Source of the DNA: a virus | Strand: one strand, 5' to 3' | IMG/VR virus record: IMGVR_UViG_3300048835_000993 | Coordinates: 1-38,013 of that record | Length of the DNA stretch: 38,013 nt | In this document: positions 16,868-29,285 of the stretch, one piece after another | How positions within the stretch are numbered: the first letter of the stretch is position 1 | Layout: each line of letters begins with the position of its first letter | The notes under the pieces: generated by a model | The model's database searches: none | Seen by the model: the letters and a program-made list of their open reading frames with translations, nothing else | What the model was told of the DNA's origin: nothing | Translations under genes and position numbers: made by a program

Positions 16868-17148
16868 GGGGCCCCTCCTTTTGAAAAATCACGGGTGGTC
16901 TTGTGAGTTTTCGGAAGGGGTGCCCGATCGAAGCGGACCCGTCCTATGGGAAGCACTTGGCGCGTGCCGCTCCCCACTGGGAGGCCGTCTTTCCGGCTGT
17001 CGTCGGGACCGGAGGCAAGGCCGGGTGTCCGTCGACAATCAGAAAAGACACACTTCCCGTTGTGGGTCAAGAGGGGTCCGATACGACATCTGCCCGCGCC
17101 TTTACCGGGCGCGGGCAGATTTTCTGCTTCACAAGCGCTGCGAAACGG
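16868..17148 (-). promoter_or_regulatory. 281-bp gap upstream of the capsid gene with possible leftward promoter
   Basis: This is the longest gap within the virion genes. On the leftward strand TTGACC (17072-17067) overlaps a copy of CCACAACGG (plus-strand CCGTTGTGGG at 17057-17066), the same motif that fills 24919-25217. No clear -10 lies 16-18 bp downstream (CTTTTC), so the promoter is only suspected. An open frame of 93 codons crosses the gap but has no ribosome site and would overlap the capsid start. Confidence 0.3.
17088..17120. terminator. 13-bp perfect stem-loop between scaffold and capsid
   Basis: ATCTGCCCGCGCC (17088-17100), loop TTTACCG, then GGCGCGGGCAGAT (17108-17120), a perfect 13-bp stem. 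On the plus strand it is followed by TTTTCTG, weakly terminator-like in the rightward sense. On the gene strand it lies 28 bp after the scaffold stop without a T-run. It may adjust scaffold-to-capsid expression or act as an RNA processing site. Confidence 0.5.
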
Positions 17149-22170: not shown

Positions 22171-23868
22171 TCAATCTCCATAGGGGTTCATCGGGTCATA
22201 CCGGGCGGACAGCCCCCCGGCGGGCTCCATCGGGCGGCCTTGGTCGCCCTCTCTCCCCGTGGCCGCGCGGGCCCCGTGGGGGAAACTGATCGGACTTAAG
22301 CCGTTGCCCTTGTGCTGGCTAAGAAGCAGGTATTGCAGGGCGTCCATGACGTTCGCCTCGGTCAGCCGCTTGTCCGGGACCTTGCGCTTGTCGCCCGATG
22401 CGTCGACCTCATCGGTCCAGACATAGCGGGCCTCGAAGCCCCGGATCAGGAACTTGGCACTCGGGTCGATGATCAGCCCAGGCCTGCCGCCCTGGACGAA
22501 CTCCAGCGGCGCGCGCACGGCCTCCAGGCGGGGCTGCAGGCGGTTGGTGCCCAGGCGCTGCGGCCGCACGCGAAAGCCCGCCGCCTGCCCCACGATCTTG
22601 TTCCAGGTCGCGTTTTCGTCGGCAGCCTGGCTGGCCCCGTGTTCGCCCGCCATGTCGCCCCAGCCGTCGCCCTTCCTCAGGTGCGAAAAACGCCGCTCGA
22701 TCAGCTCGTCCAGGCGACGGCCAAACTCGGCGGCCATCAGCCGCTCCTTGTCGAAATGCAGCTCGGCCAGGATGGTCCAGTGGAAGGGCGGGGCGAACTG
22801 GGCGATGACCGCCGCGCCCTTGAAGCCCTGGTCGAGGCCGAAAAGGAGGGGAAGCGACGGGTCAGGCTGGATCGTCGTCTCGGCCACATGGATCCGGCGG
22901 TTGAACTCGCGGGCAAAGACCGGGTCGCCGGCGCGCAGGTAGGTGGTCCGGTTGTAGACCATGCGGCTGGTCACGTCGGATTTGCCCGCCAGCTTGTTCA
23001 GCGCGATCTGCAGCTCGTAATAGCCGGGCGCGAGGTTGGCCATGTTTTCAAGGCCGGGCTCGCCATAGCCGGGCTGCCGGTGAAAGCTGATCTCGATCTT
23101 GCGCGCGCCCTCGGGCTGGCTGGCGGTCAGCTGCTTGGCGATCTCGGCACGGCCGGCGGTGTCGTGGAAAACCTTGTAGGTCCAGTTGTCCTCATCCGGG
23201 GCGTTGAAGTCGCAGTCGATCTGGCCGTAGCTCCGCACATCGTCGGCATAGCCCTCGAAGTGCTTGCGCCCCGGCCAGCGGTTGATCCGGCCGACCCCGA
23301 AGGTCAGGCTGTCCAGCGGGTTGGTGTCGGCTTCGCTGATGTCCAGGTCGGTGCATTCGAGGCCCCGCATGGATGCCGCGACGTCGTCACCGAAGGCCAT
23401 GAACTCGGCGATCCAGTCGATCTCGCCGTGTTCGTCGGCAAAGCGGATGTGGTGGCGCACCGGGTCACCCCGGCCGCCGGACCAGGTGCCCAGGGACTTC
23501 GGATAGGTCTCCAGGTAGGACGGGATGACCGTGGCCCAAAGCTGGCGATAGGTCTCGCGGGTGAAGAGAACCTTGTAATACCGGACCGCGTCGATCACCG
23601 ATCGGGGCATCATCACCGCCCGGCGCAGCTTCCGGCGCATCTTGGTGGTGGTCTTGCCGCTGCCGACCGGCCCCTGGATCGCGACCACGCTGGCATCGTC
23701 CCAGTAGTAGGCTTCGGCTACCGGGCCGGGGAATGTGAAGGCCCCCAGATCTGGCATCTTGCCATCGGCGAAGTTTCCGTCCAGGCTGTCGATCGCCTCG
23801 CTTGCCGACAGTCCTGCCAGCATCTCCGCGCGTGCATCGACATCATCGGCGTTCCGGGTTGCGGTCAT
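22171..23868 (-). CDS. Terminase large subunit
   Basis: 565 residues from the ATG at 23868 (MTATRNADDVDARAEM), with GGGGG 7 nt upstream. The longer open frame upstream reads through Pro/Arg-rich noncoding sequence and is rejected. Walker A GPVGSGKT at residues 66-73; likely Walker B and catalytic Glu in LDISEAD (E179). The nuclease half begins near FGLDQGF (D346) and continues to TEANVMDALQYLLL, as in RNase H-fold terminases. It cuts and pumps phage DNA into the procapsid at the portal. Small terminase lies 322 bp upstream across a repeat-bearing gap. Confidence 0.9.
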   Translation of the reverse strand: MTATRNADDVDARAEMLAGLSASEAIDSLDGNFADGKMPDLGAFTFPGPVAEAYYWDDASVVAIQGPVGSGKTTTKMRRKLRRAVMMPRSVIDAVRYYKVLFTRETYRQLWATVIPSYLETYPKSLGTWSGGRGDPVRHHIRFADEHGEIDWIAEFMAFGDDVAASMRGLECTDLDISEADTNPLDSLTFGVGRINRWPGRKHFEGYADDVRSYGQIDCDFNAPDEDNWTYKVFHDTAGRAEIAKQLTASQPEGARKIEISFHRQPGYGEPGLENMANLAPGYYELQIALNKLAGKSDVTSRMVYNRTTYLRAGDPVFAREFNRRIHVAETTIQPDPSLPLLFGLDQGFKGAAVIAQFAPPFHWTILAELHFDKERLMAAEFGRRLDELIERRFSHLRKGDGWGDMAGEHGASQAADENATWNKIVGQAAGFRVRPQRLGTNRLQPRLEAVRAPLEFVQGGRPGLIIDPSAKFLIRGFEARYVWTDEVDASGDKRKVPDKRLTEANVMDALQYLLLSQHKGNGLSPISFPHGARAATGREGDQGRPMEPAGGLSARYDPMNPYGD

Positions 23869-24190
23869 GTACGCACCCCCACGGTCAGGCCACCCCGGCA
23901 GCCTTTGCCGGGATAGGGCAAGGCCGCACCCCCCACCCCATTTGCGCCGCACCCCAGTCGCGCCCCTGACGGGCCGATCAGGCCGGAAATGCCGTATGGG
24001 GTCGGAGACACGGCGAGAGAGACTGGGGCGCGGACGCCCCCCGGGGGGTCGCGGCGGGGGCGCGAAGGCCGGGAGGCGCAAGGGGGGGTGGCCCCGATCG
24101 GCCCGCCCAGGGCGCAGCCGATCGGCCCGTCTTGGTGGCGGGTCCGCTGATTTTTGATCAGCCGGTTGGGTGTGGATTGTGCCAAGGATT
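23869..24190. repeat. Noncoding gap between terminase subunits with a repeated CCGATCGGCCCG motif
   Basis: Very GC-rich 322 bp without a convincing gene. CCGATCGGCCCGCC (24094-24107) and CCGATCGGCCCGTC (24118-24131) are direct copies 24 bp apart. GACGGGCCGATCAG (23968-23981) is the same motif inverted with one change. A small stem (GCTGAT / ATCAGC) lies about 40 bp past the small-terminase stop. A packaging recognition site is possible, since terminase genes often carry it nearby; this is inference. Confidence 0.45.
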
Positions 24191-24874
24191 TCAACGGCTT
24201 GTCCCTTCCGTCCGACTGGCGCTGTCCGACTGGACCGGCGCGGCCTCGCTAACCCCTTGATTTCGTTGGACCTGCGCAGGCATCGGCGGCGGACCGATCC
24301 GGGACGGTTGCGGGGTCACGTCGCGCGCCTGGTCGCCTGGTCTGCCGGTGCCTGCGGCCTGCGGACCGGCCACGTAGACCGGCACCGGGACCGCGATTGT
24401 CACGTCCTTGTCGACCTTGCCCAGGCCGTAGGGCAGCAGGGCCTCTGCAGCGCGCAGGGCGGCGGCGTAGATCGTCTGGAACGTGGCGACCCGCTGCGCC
24501 ATCGTGGCGCTGGTGTCGAGCTGGACCTCGATCAGGCAGCCGTCGCGGATCACCTGGGCGGTTTTCCTTGCCCCGGCCTCGGCCCAGGCCAGCACCTGCT
24601 CGGTCCGCTGCATGGCGAAGACGAAGACGTCCTCGCGGCTGGCCATGCCGGCCATCTGGACCAGCTGGTCTTCGGGCAGGCTGTAGCCCTTCAGGGCGCA
24701 CCAGTCGCGCAGCTGCGAGGTGATCTTGCCCTTGCCGCGCGGTGGGCGCTGGCCCTCGACCGGCTGGCCGGGATCCCCAGGCAACAGCGCCAGCTGCTCG
24801 CCCGCCGCCCGCGCCACGTCGATGTTGCGGGCGGCTTGCGCGGCCAATTCGTCAAACTGGGTGCCCTTCGGCAT
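24191..24874 (-). CDS. Terminase small subunit (DNA-packaging protein), putative
   Basis: 227 residues from the ATG at 24874, with GAGGGGG 8 nt upstream (a TTG at 24880 is in frame). Segment GKGKITSQLRDWCALKGY, followed by PEDQLVQMAGMASREDV and MQRTEQVLAWAEAG, resembles the small packaging protein found upstream of TerL in alphaproteobacterial podoviruses. The central part is helical (oligomerisation). The last 60 residues are Pro/Ser/Gln-rich and probably flexible. It would bind the packaging site and recruit the large subunit. The repeat block just upstream could be its target. The family match is by pattern and position only. Confidence 0.7.
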   Translation of the reverse strand: MPKGTQFDELAAQAARNIDVARAAGEQLALLPGDPGQPVEGQRPPRGKGKITSQLRDWCALKGYSLPEDQLVQMAGMASREDVFVFAMQRTEQVLAWAEAGARKTAQVIRDGCLIEVQLDTSATMAQRVATFQTIYAAALRAAEALLPYGLGKVDKDVTIAVPVPVYVAGPQAAGTGRPGDQARDVTPQPSRIGPPPMPAQVQRNQGVSEAAPVQSDSASRTEGTSR

Positions 24875-25373
24875 CGTCAAAACCCCCTCAAATCGAACGA
24901 TTTCAAGGGTTTGGCCCGGCCCACAACGCCGCCCACAACGGCAGGCCGAGGCGGCGTTGTGGGCAGGGACAGGGAAACACCCCTCTTTTCTCCTTTCTTT
25001 TCAGGCAGATAGAGAAAGAGAAGAGAGAGGCACAACGCCACAACGCCACAACGGTCGCGCATGTGATCGCACACGCGCGCACGCACACACACATGTAGGG
25101 ATTTCCGTTTTTGCCGTTGTGGCGTTGTGGGTGGGGCTAACCCTTTGATCTGGCGCAGGAAAAGCCCACAACGGACCCCACAACGCCGCGACCTGCCAAC
25201 CGTTGTGGCGTTGTGGGCAAAAGCGACATTCGCCGTGTCGCAATCGGGATAGACAGCCCCGAACCCTTCGCCGCAGGTGGCCCCGCGCAGCGCAATTCTG
25301 GCACCAATCGGGGACCGGGGCAAGCGGGCCGCAAGTGCCGGGCGCGAAAGGCCTTTATGCGTGTCAAGGGGCG
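24875..25373. repeat. Noncoding block with twelve CCACAACG motifs in both orientations
   Basis: About 500 bp with no credible gene, between helicase and small terminase. CCACAACG or its last 8 of 9 bases occurs at 24921, 24933, 25031 (as CACAACGCC), 25038, 25046, 25166 and 25178. The complement CGTTGTGG occurs at 24955, 25115, 25123, 25201 and 25209. A 15-bp perfect inverted repeat (GCCCACAACGCCGCC, 24919-24933 and 24950-24964) has a 16-nt loop. CCGTTGTGGCGTTGTGG occurs at 25114 and 25200 and inverted at 25038-25054. Between these lie a purine/pyrimidine-biased stretch (24980-25030) and a CA-rich stretch (25060-25095). Candidate replication origin iterons, packaging site or regulator-binding array. 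Confidence 0.75.
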
Positions 25374-27350
25374 TCATGCGAAGTCGTCGGCCTCGATGCT
25401 GGGAAGGGTGGTGGGCGCGTCCGTCTTGGCGCTGGATGTCGGGAACTGCATCAGGCCCGGGATCGACGCGAAGGGGATGTGCCAGCCCCGCGTGCGGATA
25501 CCGGCCAGGGTGAGTGGGTCCGGGCTGGGCGTAGCGCCCTGCACGCGGGCGGCGGACTGCTTCCACACGGTCTTGGCCCATTCCGACTTCTGGAAGAGGT
25601 CGAGCAGGCCCTGGATGGGGTTGTTGGCGATGAACAGCCGCGCCTCGATGCCGCTGCCGTAGACACGCAGCCCGGCGCTGGCCAGCTTGCCGTTGACGGC
25701 CTTGGCATACTCGGCCTTGTCAGCCCAGCCATCGCCGCCCAGAAGGCCCTCTGGCGCGCCGGGAAGCTGGGCGGCAGCCATCAGCCATTGGGCAATGGTG
25801 AACTGCTCGCCCCGGCGGTAGATGTCGAACTTCTGCGTCAGAAGGTGCATGAGCATGCCGTCGGCGTCGCTGCCCAGCTCGGCCACGTCGGCGCGGATCA
25901 GGCGGGCGACGCGGTGCGACCAGCTGGACAGGATCTCGGGTGTGGGCAGGCCCTCGGACAGGGCCATGTCGGCCATGGCAAGGGTGGTGGCCCAGTTGTC
26001 GCCATTCCGGCCTGCAATGCCCTCCAGGGCGAAGGCCTCGCGCCAAAGCTCCAGGCGCGCGGCCCAGGTGGGCCAGCGGTCGATCAGCACGCGCTTCAGG
26101 GCAGCGCCACGGCCGCGCCAGACATCGGCGCGCAGGGTGGGGGCGGTGGCGCCTTCGGGCAGGGCGTTCAGGGTCAGGATGATCAGGCGCGACAGGTCCT
26201 GCGGCTTCAGCTCGCCCGGGATCAGGATCGAGGAGGCGAAGAAGGCGCTGTAGACGTTGCCGCCTGCGCCCTTCTGGTCGCTGGATCCCCGGAACCACTG
26301 GCCGCCGGATGAGGCGACGCGGGCCAGGGTGATGATGTCCTTTTCCTTCGACGATCGCTCGTCACCGGGCTCCAGCTCGTCCAGGGCGACGGGAAGGGAT
26401 CCGTGGCCGATGCGGCTGGTCAGGCCCGACTTGGTGGCGTCGGCGGACTGGACAAGGCCCTTCTCGCCGCCATGCAGGTGCTTGATCAGGGTCTGCAGCG
26501 TGGATTTGCCCGCGCTCTTGCCGCCGGTCAGCCAGGTGAAGGGCCGCCAGTCCAGCGCCCCGCCCAGCATCTGCGTGCCGATCACGCCCAGCATGATCTG
26601 CGGGTCGATGTCGCGCGACCAGTTCCAGGTGGCCAGCGTCTCCAGCACCTGCGCGCCGGGGGCGGCGCTGTCCTTGAGGGTCAGGGCGGGCTTCGGGATC
26701 GGCGGATAGGCCGGGTAGATCCGGCCCTGGTGCGTGGCGGGCGGGATCTCGCCCTCGGCCGTGATCAGCACGTCGCCGGCGTGATAGATGAGGGACCCGT
26801 CGTCATCCGTCCAGGCCCCGACGCCGCGGATCGCGCCCTCGGGGTCGAAGAGGCCCCGCTCGCCACAGGCGGCCATCATGGTCAGGGCGGCCTTGTCGGC
26901 CTCGAAGTCGTCGGGCTTGCGGCGCCAGGCCCCGGTGTCCTTGTCCATCGTCATCTTGGGGAAGGCGTTGAACAGGGCGGCGGTGCGGTGGCCGAACATC
27001 TGGGCGATGGTCTGGCGTTCGTGCTTGCCGATCGCGCGCAGCTGGCCCAGGGCGTCCAGGTAGTAGCAATGCCCGCCGTTCACGCCCAGGGGCTTGACCG
27101 GACAGCCGTCCCAGATCTCGCCCTTGGGGCGTGACGGCCTGCCTGACGGGGGCGGGGGTGGGGACCCGCTGTCTTGGTCGTGGTCAGGGGCTTGGCCGGG
27201 ATCGTCCTCGGGCGGCGGTGGCGCGTCAGCTTTGGGCCGGGCGCGGCCTTTCGGCTTCGGTCCCGGCTCGCCCGCGACCGGCGGCTCCTCGATCTCGGCC
27301 GCAAGGGCCGCGACGGGGCGCAGGGGGGTGATGTCGGCTTCGGCTGTCAC
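25374..27350 (-). CDS. Replicative helicase-like P-loop ATPase
   Basis: 658 residues, GTG at 27350 overlapping the previous stop as GTGA. Residues 20-80 are a Pro-rich flexible linker. The ATPase core has Walker A LTGGKSAGKST (274-284) and Walker B LPVALDELEP (319-328), then GGQWFRGSSDQK and a sensor-like FFASSILIPGELKPQDLSRL, as in SF3/D5-type phage helicases. With the separate Toprim primase upstream it would make up the phage initiation machinery; no DNA polymerase gene is seen, so host polymerase is implied. The downstream repeat block could be where it loads. A DUF927/DUF3631-type ATPase is the other reading. Confidence 0.8.
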   Translation of the reverse strand: MTAEADITPLRPVAALAAEIEEPPVAGEPGPKPKGRARPKADAPPPPEDDPGQAPDHDQDSGSPPPPPSGRPSRPKGEIWDGCPVKPLGVNGGHCYYLDALGQLRAIGKHERQTIAQMFGHRTAALFNAFPKMTMDKDTGAWRRKPDDFEADKAALTMMAACGERGLFDPEGAIRGVGAWTDDDGSLIYHAGDVLITAEGEIPPATHQGRIYPAYPPIPKPALTLKDSAAPGAQVLETLATWNWSRDIDPQIMLGVIGTQMLGGALDWRPFTWLTGGKSAGKSTLQTLIKHLHGGEKGLVQSADATKSGLTSRIGHGSLPVALDELEPGDERSSKEKDIITLARVASSGGQWFRGSSDQKGAGGNVYSAFFASSILIPGELKPQDLSRLIILTLNALPEGATAPTLRADVWRGRGAALKRVLIDRWPTWAARLELWREAFALEGIAGRNGDNWATTLAMADMALSEGLPTPEILSSWSHRVARLIRADVAELGSDADGMLMHLLTQKFDIYRRGEQFTIAQWLMAAAQLPGAPEGLLGGDGWADKAEYAKAVNGKLASAGLRVYGSGIEARLFIANNPIQGLLDLFQKSEWAKTVWKQSAARVQGATPSPDPLTLAGIRTRGWHIPFASIPGLMQFPTSSAKTDAPTTLPSIEADDFA

Positions 27351-27814: not shown

Positions 27815-28119
27815 GCTGCCCCCTTTGCCCGCGCTGCGCGGCGGTCGATGCGCTCGATCTCTGCGATGATCAGAGCGGCAGCGCGCACCAAGTTTTCTCG
27901 GCGGCTTTTCGGCTTCCACCACGCCCTGTCGAACGGCCAGAACCACGGCTTCAGGCCGTGCTTGTCCGCGAAGGCATAGGCGGCTCCAGCCAGCGCTAGC
28001 TCGCCATGGGCATGAGCGTCGTCATGTTCGTCCGTCCAGCCTTCTTCGTAAAACTGGCGCTCCCGCTCTCGCAAGACGTCGCCCTGTGCCTGGCTGGTCA
28101 GTGTCACCGGATAGCTCAC
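27811..28119 (-). CDS. Conserved phage protein (EGWT.EHDD type)
   Basis: 102 residues from the GTG at 28119, with AGGAGGG 6 nt upstream and overlapping the primase stop as GTGA. It contains VLRERERQFYEEGWTDEHDD, then HGELALAGAAYA, WPFDRAWWKPKSRRENLVRA and LIIAEIERIDR, a pattern common in phages of Proteobacteria next to replication genes. Its biochemical role is not known. It lies between the primase and MazG-like genes. Confidence 0.72.
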   Translation of the reverse strand: MSYPVTLTSQAQGDVLRERERQFYEEGWTDEHDDAHAHGELALAGAAYAFADKHGLKPWFWPFDRAWWKPKSRRENLVRAAALIIAEIERIDRRAARAKGAA

Positions 28120-29285
28120 GCAGCTCCCTCCTGTGCTTCTTCTCTCAGCGCCCGCATCAGGGCGTCGTTCAGGTCTTCGCCGGGCCTGTCGGATTTCCAG
28201 ACGCGGACGGTGCGGCCCTGCGCCTGGTGCTGGCGGATCGCCTCGGCCAGTTGCTCCTGTGCCTGCTCGCCCAGGTCGTGGTCGGTGATCAGGACAACCT
28301 CGGTCACTTCCTTCGGCAGGCCGACCCGGCCCATGTTGGACAGGCTATAGGCTGCCAGGACGCGCGCGTCGGGGCGCAGGATCCGGGCGCTCAAGGCCGT
28401 CTCGATGCCTTCGGCGATGTAGACGCGGGTGCCGGGCGGGCAGCGGTTCAGGGGCGCGCCCTTGCCACCGTTGGGCCCGAGGCCCGAGGCAAGGCGGATC
28501 GCGCAGCCGTCGCCCCAGCCATAGACCTTCTTGGCCTTCAGGAACTGACCCTCGGCGCTGGGGTGGGGCACGCGGATCTTGTCCCAGCGGCCGGTGGCGA
28601 GGGACAGCCAGGTGCGGTGCACCGCAACGGTGCGGCCCTGCAGGTTGGTCATCGCGGCCAGCATGGCGGGGCCGTCAAACTCGATCACCTCGCCGGTGGT
28701 CTTGTCCTCGAAATGGTAGTGGCACTTCGGCAGGTAACGCAGGGCGCGGGGCTGGTGGCCGATGGTCGCAAGGTCGATGCCCCGGCCCTTCAGGTACAGG
28801 TCGACCGGGGTGCCGCGAAGGTTGGGCTCGGCCGCCAGCCACATCGCCTCGGCCCGGCGGCTGGTGCGGTCGCGGTCGCGCTTGGCGGCGGCCTCGGCTT
28901 CGGCCTGGCGGGCGCGGGCGGCGGCGATCGCCACCTCGCGCGCCTTGGCGTCGGCGGGGTTGTCGGTTGACAGGCCCAGGAAGTGCCGCGCCTCGCGCAG
29001 CTGGTCGACCATGTTGCCCAGGCCCAGGCGAAGGCCGATCAGGTCGAAGACGTCGCCATGCTGGCCGGTGGCGAAGTCCTCCCACTTGCCGGCCTTGTGC
29101 CCGGTCAGGTGGATGACGAAGGACCCGACCGACCTGTCGGCCCGGCCGGGGTTCAGGGTGAAGTACTTGCCCTTGTCCTCATAGCTGCCCTTGGCGGGCG
29201 GGGCGTAATGCCAGGCAAACTCGGACATGCGCGCGATGAGCATCTCCTTGATCTCTTCGATCGAGTATGTCTGGCGCGCCTGCAT
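28116..29285 (-). CDS. Toprim-domain phage primase
   Basis: 389 residues. The N-terminal part (YFTLNPGRADRSVGSF, KWEDFATGQHGDVFDLIGL, residues 40-87) looks like the zinc-finger-like module of phage primases, here without cysteines. Residues 105-145 are a charged helical linker. The C-terminal Toprim domain has IAEGIETALSA (E292, E295), VLITDHDLGE (D335, D337) and a late DLNDAL. Toprim primases make RNA primers at forks. The partner helicase is three genes downstream. The ribosome site is weak; the gene follows its neighbour by 5 bp and is probably translationally coupled. Confidence 0.88.
   Translation of the reverse strand: MQARQTYSIEEIKEMLIARMSEFAWHYAPPAKGSYEDKGKYFTLNPGRADRSVGSFVIHLTGHKAGKWEDFATGQHGDVFDLIGLRLGLGNMVDQLREARHFLGLSTDNPADAKAREVAIAAARARQAEAEAAAKRDRDRTSRRAEAMWLAAEPNLRGTPVDLYLKGRGIDLATIGHQPRALRYLPKCHYHFEDKTTGEVIEFDGPAMLAAMTNLQGRTVAVHRTWLSLATGRWDKIRVPHPSAEGQFLKAKKVYGWGDGCAIRLASGLGPNGGKGAPLNRCPPGTRVYIAEGIETALSARILRPDARVLAAYSLSNMGRVGLPKEVTEVVLITDHDLGEQAQEQLAEAIRQHQAQGRTVRVWKSDRPGEDLNDALMRALREEAQEGAA

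Follow-up and report, generated by a model that had tools for sequence, protein, structure and literature searches.

In the analysed window, the whole 38,013-nucleotide stretch of viral DNA (IMG/VR record IMGVR_UViG_3300048835_000993), the block of short repeats at 24919-25217 is very probably a replication origin read by the C-terminal domain of the replicative helicase encoded beside it, and its repeated word could be re-keyed together with that reader domain as a cassette, as judged by sequence comparison and structure modelling. The evidence computed directly consists of the array, its conserved geometry, the coordinated switches of its word, the covariation of helicase residue 614 with the third base of the word, which also held up when applied to further lineages, and the shared divergence of reader and array. 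The features of the region are collected in Table 1.

The original prediction had described a cluster of twelve short motifs between the helicase and terminase genes, and this cluster is real. The block contains 12 copies of CACAACG (7 direct, 5 inverted), and 11 exact copies of CCACAACG fall within 24921-25216 (6 on the plus strand and 5 on the minus strand), whereas dinucleotide shuffles of the complete 38 kb window contained on average 1.39 copies and at most 5. The twelfth copy, at 25030-25037, is GCACAACG, which retains the core CACAACG; since the first tandem copy begins with G, the predicted count of twelve stands for CACAACG, while only eleven are counted for CCACAACG. The only copy of CCACAACG elsewhere in the window is at 17058. 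The three-copy 8-bp tandem (25031-25054), the 15-bp perfect inverted repeat and the doubled unit that had been reported were all found in the block, along with perfect inverted repeats of 17 and 18 bp. The purine/pyrimidine-biased and CA-rich parts were likewise recovered: the 30-bp alternating purine/pyrimidine run is the longest in the window, the second longest being 11 bp, and beside it are a 23-nt pyrimidine tract and a 20-nt purine tract.

The block is located inside the 493 bp that separate the helicase stop (25374) from the start of the gene in small-terminase (TerS) position (24880), the array starts 157 bp beyond the helicase stop, and the genes flanking it are all on the minus strand. 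A nucleotide-level search of phage DNA with the block returned chance-level matches only, and the GC skew of the window was flat, without an origin signal. The gene in TerS position had no Pfam or PHROG match and is conserved across the family at 29-77% identity. The Myb/SANT-like neighbour suggested earlier as a candidate binder was not reproduced, the Pfam scan having given no Myb/SANT domain among ten neighbouring proteins. Another IMG/VR contig, 3300048836_001241 (L014), encodes proteins 100% identical to those of the window over the compared stretch (~19-24.9 kb).

Table 1. Features of the array and its neighbouring genes in the window (P1 to P6, pairs of sites; + and - within details refer to gene orientation)
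Feature	Position	Strand	Details
Terminase large subunit (TerL)	22171..24081	-	PHROG 2
Gene in small-terminase (TerS) position	24191..24880	-	Name from synteny only
Iteron array, putative replication origin	24919..25217	.	12 CACAACG in oriented pairs
Pair P6	24921..24940	+	Sites 24933-24940, 24921-24928; offset 12 bp
P5 site	24955..24962	-	Single in window; two sites 12 bp apart in many relatives
Pyrimidine tract (24980-25002) then purine tract (25011-25030), between P4 and P5	24980..25030	.	Similar tracts in relatives
Pair/triplet P4, inverted relative to P3	25030..25053	+	Sites 25046-25053, 25038-25045, 25030-25037
Alternating purine/pyrimidine core, P3 to P4	25068..25097	.	30 bp; possible unwinding/flexible element
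Pair P3, oriented as P1, at core edge	25115..25130	-	86 bp from P1; P1-P3 start-to-start 85-86 bp in most relatives
Pair P2, inverted relative to P1	25166..25185	+	Sites 25178-25185, 25166-25173; offset 12 bp
Pair P1, ++ in gene orientation	25201..25216	-	Sites 25209-25216, 25201-25208; gene-orientation positions 157+, 165+; 8-bp offset kept in relatives
SF3-type (DUF927/NrS-1/SaPI Rep-like) replicative helicase	25374..27350	-	658 aa; proposed origin binder
Helicase C-terminal reader domain, residues 545-637	25440..25718	-	AlphaFold2, covariation; Pfam negative
Codon of T614, residue predicting word base 3	25509..25511	-	
TOPRIM primase (DUF7146 + Toprim_3)	28116..29285	-	Separate gene; replication module shared with helicase

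The AlphaFold2 model of the helicase was confident, at a mean pLDDT of 82.8, with residues 545-637 as its well-predicted C-terminal part and residue 614 modelled in the strand 613-615 of a beta hairpin. With a Walker A motif GGKSAGKS, a DUF927 match slightly under the Pfam cut-off, and Foldseek matches of the whole model to the NrS-1 CTR (E 4.7e-8) and also to MPXV E5, poxvirus D5, SaPI5 (7ola) and PriRep1 (7pds), the protein has the character of an SF3-type AAA+ replicative helicase of the SaPI Rep type. For the isolated reader domain, also modelled on its own, the comparison with solved structures by Foldseek and VIA-align gave no convincing fold (best Z 2.6); the top VIA row, a DUF1528 domain at that Z, is only a lead, and Pfam on all 37 readers gave nothing consistent and no family. 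Such a weak structural match of a modelled domain does not establish a new fold.

The reader domain was also observed outside the helicase. Two Bro-N (antirepressor-like) proteins carry it (L025 141-1190 and L260 823-1659, with the stretches VPLTLGGVVTRG and PRTLASVRTRG), and the gene in L025 lies just downstream of a pair of CCACAACGCCACAACG (also given as a pair of CCACAACG), in agreement with its T at 614. A second reader-domain ORF of 259 aa with the stretch SRYLEGIQTRG is present in a Pseudogemmobacter genome (L259 1703-2482), ~7 kb from the prophage helicase and directly after an integrase-like gene, and is possibly a remnant of another phage.

Searches by helicase alignment provided 35 viral loci (some refetched) and 9 loci in bacterial genomes, the named hosts being Rhodobacteraceae, e.g., Paracoccus haematequi, Puniceibacterium antarcticum, Palleronia pelagia and Pseudogemmobacter bohemicus. 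The results showed that the same array is kept downstream of homologous helicases in more than 40 related Rhodobacteraceae phages and prophages, and that it is present in every locus of this family with sufficient downstream sequence. The common plan has an alternating purine/pyrimidine core, with runs of mostly 16-37 bp in the relatives, surrounded by ~12 sites that form six pairs of set spacing and orientation. In gene orientation, the usual layout reads ++ at 8 bp, -- at 12 bp, ++ at 8 bp, core, -- or ---, ++ and --, with the third pair starting 85-86 bp from the first, and single sites are missing or shifted in some loci.

It had been anticipated that relatives keeping both flanking genes should also keep the array; CCACAACG itself was absent from close relatives of this kind, but the array was kept under another word. 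In close relatives (77-84% helicase identity) synteny is preserved and no CCACAACG array is found because the word has been altered in concert in all or nearly all of its copies, the words of their intergenic blocks being CCGCAACG in L005, CTGCAACG in L006 and CAGCAACG in L012, with CCATACCG in L010 and CCCCTACG in L011 among more distant relatives. The wording "all or nearly all" is used since a one-base variant is seen in a minority of copies at some loci. A helicase-core tree built with the reader left out shows at least 21 switches of the whole word; the spacing of the sites stayed as it was when words changed. For L063 and L084, which have NACACAC-type words, the register cannot be fixed and both loci were excluded from the tree tests; a reading of the L084 word as GTGTACCC was rejected, as its orientation was wrong and the register of this locus is ambiguous.

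Words of this kind were also noted near other replication genes. Low-GC phages (L017, L018, L030, L032, L036, L046 and L048) have 7-8 CACAACG sites in ~100 bp directly after the helicase gene, and their primase-helicase is of a different type (primpol plus RecA-like, without the reader domain), so that they apparently have the same word in an unrelated replication module. In the high-GC phages L024 (720-900) and L029 (4330-4510), a CG/CA tract is surrounded by four sites (++ ... --); the gene on one side encodes a DinG-like helicase and that on the other a primase-helicase without a recognisable reader domain.

Which protein follows the word was determined by comparing residue differences with word differences for each alignment column, given the overall protein distance, in the helicase, TerS, TerL and primase. 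The highest value came from helicase residues 609-624, with a partial r of 0.43, in comparison to 0.24 for TerS, 0.28 for TerL and 0.26 for the primase. Within this region, in the stretch LTLAGxRTRG, residue 614 varies with base 3 of the word: T or S accompanies A, K or R accompanies G, and Y accompanies C. The mutual information between T614 and base 3 was 0.94 of 1.02 bits (normalised 0.78), the second best of 9,834 column-by-base tests across the four proteins being 0.40 on the normalised scale, and no TerS column tracked the word comparably. Determinants for bases 2, 4, 5 and 8 were weak, the best for base 2 being helicase G617 (0.28). High z-scores for primase V161 and TerL N299 were discarded, as both reflected tiny mutual information in nearly invariant columns. 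On the helicase-core tree without the reader, base 3 changed at least six times and the residue class six times, and all five independent pairs agreed; five pairs alone cannot give p < 0.05, and the weight therefore rests on the test with further lineages.

For that test, the rule was fixed on the 39-locus set beforehand, and the further helicases, mostly 22-40% identical to the first set, were taken from IMG/VR and phage records. Their arrays were located by automatic search with consensus words, only words of a single register were used, and lineages were collapsed at 65% identity. The fixed rule was correct for 23 of the 28 lineages in comparison to a shuffle mean of 15.6 (p = 4e-5), a result to be read with three features of the design in mind: the word form AC-R, used for the register, was derived from the first set, several new words were excluded for ambiguous register, and five distant phages had been inspected by eye before the formal test, two of which (L095 and L096) were among the usable lineages. 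The five exceptions were K/R with T (L168, L204 and L164) and S with G (L135 and L206); in L164 the word, GGTGAACG, is found near +58 to +321 of the helicase end, and the helicase combines K614 with T at base 3. A joint tree with 84 rows showed 17 changes of base 3; of its 9 independent pairs, 7 supported the link between A and T/S and none went against it (median p 0.016). As a separate observation, W at or next to position 614 mostly pairs with C at base 3 in words of the CCTAACG type (L242, L246, L251, L119, L132, L112, L114, L118 and L128); the Y-to-C rule may perhaps extend to aromatic residues, with the alignment off by one residue in some of these readers. The covariation suggests that the specificity for the word is set by the helicase C-terminal domain.

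The array could instead be a set of operators through which the helicase, or another protein with the reader domain, regulates the terminase operon or itself, with replication starting elsewhere. The array is upstream of TerS-TerL, and the reader is fused to a regulator-like Bro-N protein at two loci, one of which has a pair of words just upstream of the gene. However, an array of twelve strictly spaced sites, with palindromic modules and an alternating core, goes beyond what is usual for operators, the reader belongs to a replicative helicase, and in many distant lineages the array immediately follows the helicase gene whichever gene comes next; even where the gene order differs in distant lineages, it is still near the helicase. 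Operators of this kind are considered improbable as the whole explanation; a regulatory role may exist alongside the origin function.

Because of the position of the array, the main rival is that the array serves in packaging as a cos or pac site, with the small terminase, encoded immediately after it, as the binder. The array abuts the gene in TerS position in nearly all Rhodobacteraceae relatives, and it stays beside this gene in L061 and L062, the only members of the family in which inserted genes (L061 5759-7150 and L062 5954-6650) separate the helicase from the array; TerS also diverges faster than TerL between the window and L012 (69% versus 95%). A natural pair of relatives argues against it. 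L060 and L065 are 96% identical in the helicase core, 96% in TerS and 99% in TerL, yet only 73% in the reader domain, and nearly all of their sites carry CCACGACG and CCACTACG, respectively. Since their TerS proteins are 96% identical and the words differ, TerS is unlikely to be what the word follows in this pair; for comparison, L074 and L078, which share a word, have readers that are 97% identical. Nucleotide identity between L060 and L065 is only 59-78% between about helicase residue 500 and the array end, compared with ~85-95% before this stretch and 93-99% in TerS after it, and this confined dip indicates that reader and array diverged as one contiguous block. Across the family no TerS column follows the word as helicase T614 does, so that the specificity of the word was not found to follow the small terminase. 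Moreover, the terminase genes of Serratia phage MQ-4 are at the start of the record while its array is ~41.4-41.7 kb along, and ~3 kb separate the array of Pseudomonas phage ZRG1 from its terminase genes. The terminase-binding site named in the original prediction is accordingly disfavoured and appears quite improbable, whereas its iteron origin with the helicase as the putative binder gains strong support from the covariation, the position in unrelated lineages and the fold relatives.

A partition or other DNA-organising site, or functionless repeats, can be given very little credence: the array is dense and in both orientations, and centromere-like sites also carry repeats in both orientations, but there was no ParA/ParB-type pair among the neighbouring genes scanned, and functionless repeats are excluded by the conserved geometry, the coordinated change of the word and the covariation with the helicase.

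In the origin model that we favour, the helicase would bind the CCACAACG iterons via its C-terminal domain (residues ~545-637), with residue 614 probably setting base 3 (A for T/S, G for K/R and C for Y), perhaps by contact. The ~12 oriented sites around the alternating core would load helicase rings and thereby allow the duplex to be opened, the core presumably taking part in this firing of the origin, and 12 sites could fit two hexamers. After opening, the neighbouring TOPRIM primase would prime synthesis. The reader domain and the adjacent array would make up a single DNA cassette, replaced or re-keyed as a unit, since reader and array are side by side and a single recombination can exchange both, and phages of one family would thereby come to carry different origin words. 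The insertions in L061 and L062 show that the cassette can be broken.

A wider and more tentative interpretation, which we think possible though less likely to be right than wrong, is that of a hypervariable origin-identity system with a simple residue-to-base code, in which iterons and helicase are re-keyed as one cassette, which would let the phage evade competitors, satellites or resident prophages able to titrate or attack its earlier word, while the Bro-N reader fusions would act as weapons or switches against origins with a given word. If the origin reading is true, the helicase loading sites in a large set of phages could be found and partly read from DNA alone, a residue in the helicase C-terminus would predict the origin that is accepted, and the origin words would suggest compatibility groups among phages and prophages. 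It would also provide a natural, varied library for studying how specificity can shift jointly in an initiator and a dozen sites while replication is maintained, such a co-change of protein and DNA sites being a long-standing puzzle of co-evolving protein-DNA systems, and a small DNA-reading domain without a named family would be on offer.

Among the known systems, SaPI Rep has its origin directly downstream of its gene, with iterons recognised by the C-terminal domain, and SaPI Rep/ori and SCCmec Cch/Cch2 share with the present helicase the SF3-type fold, the affinity to DUF927 (fold matches 7ola and 7pds) and a separate primase nearby (PMC7581432). Multiple short iterons directly downstream of the helicase gene are likewise found here, together with a C-terminal domain that, by covariation, would set iteron specificity. 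Unlike SaPI Rep, the present cases are complete phages with ~12 sites in six oriented pairs and an alternating GC/CA core, the reader has no Pfam family or clear fold match, and a single phage family shows coordinated rewording many times over, following a residue-base rule. Origins of the SaPI Rep type have an AT-rich melting region between the iteron sets; the core from P3 to P4 is instead a CG/CA alternating tract.

The alpha protein of P4 is a helicase-initiator that reads short octamer iterons in both orientations (ori and crr), and short octamers in both orientations with a helicase-initiator as the probable reader are also the case here; the word of the distant relative L164, GGTGAACG, resembles the P4 iteron. 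Unlike in P4, the primase is a separate TOPRIM protein and is not fused to the helicase, and there is one array beside the helicase gene in comparison to two separated elements.

In PLE, the DNA-binding domain of the initiator RepA and the origin iterons covary and swap as a module, and Odn, a nuclease of ICP1, uses an initiator domain that it has borrowed to attack PLE origins (PMC8263062). Domain-iteron covariation, modular exchange and the borrowing of the domain by another protein are thus shared, but PLE has an unrelated RepA_N initiator, ~30-bp iterons and two replicon types, whereas an SF3 helicase and 8-bp words in more than a dozen versions are found here, and the borrower is a Bro-N protein and not a nuclease. 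In lambda O/ori, the pairing of initiator and iterons also defines the replicon type, and cloned lambda iterons can inhibit rep-lambda phage (PMC3349717). The lambda iterons, each of 18 bp, are located within gene O and next to an AT-rich region, and the initiator is not a helicase, whereas in the window the iterons are outside the helicase gene. By analogy, lambda iteron inhibition and the attack of Odn on PLE origins are two known precedents that offer plausible reasons for the switching of words. In general, the kind of system, an initiator helicase with iterons, is already known; as far as the searchable literature shows, outside of which are many subscription papers, what is new is the repeated coordinated rewording at fixed geometry, the residue-base rule and the cassette structure.
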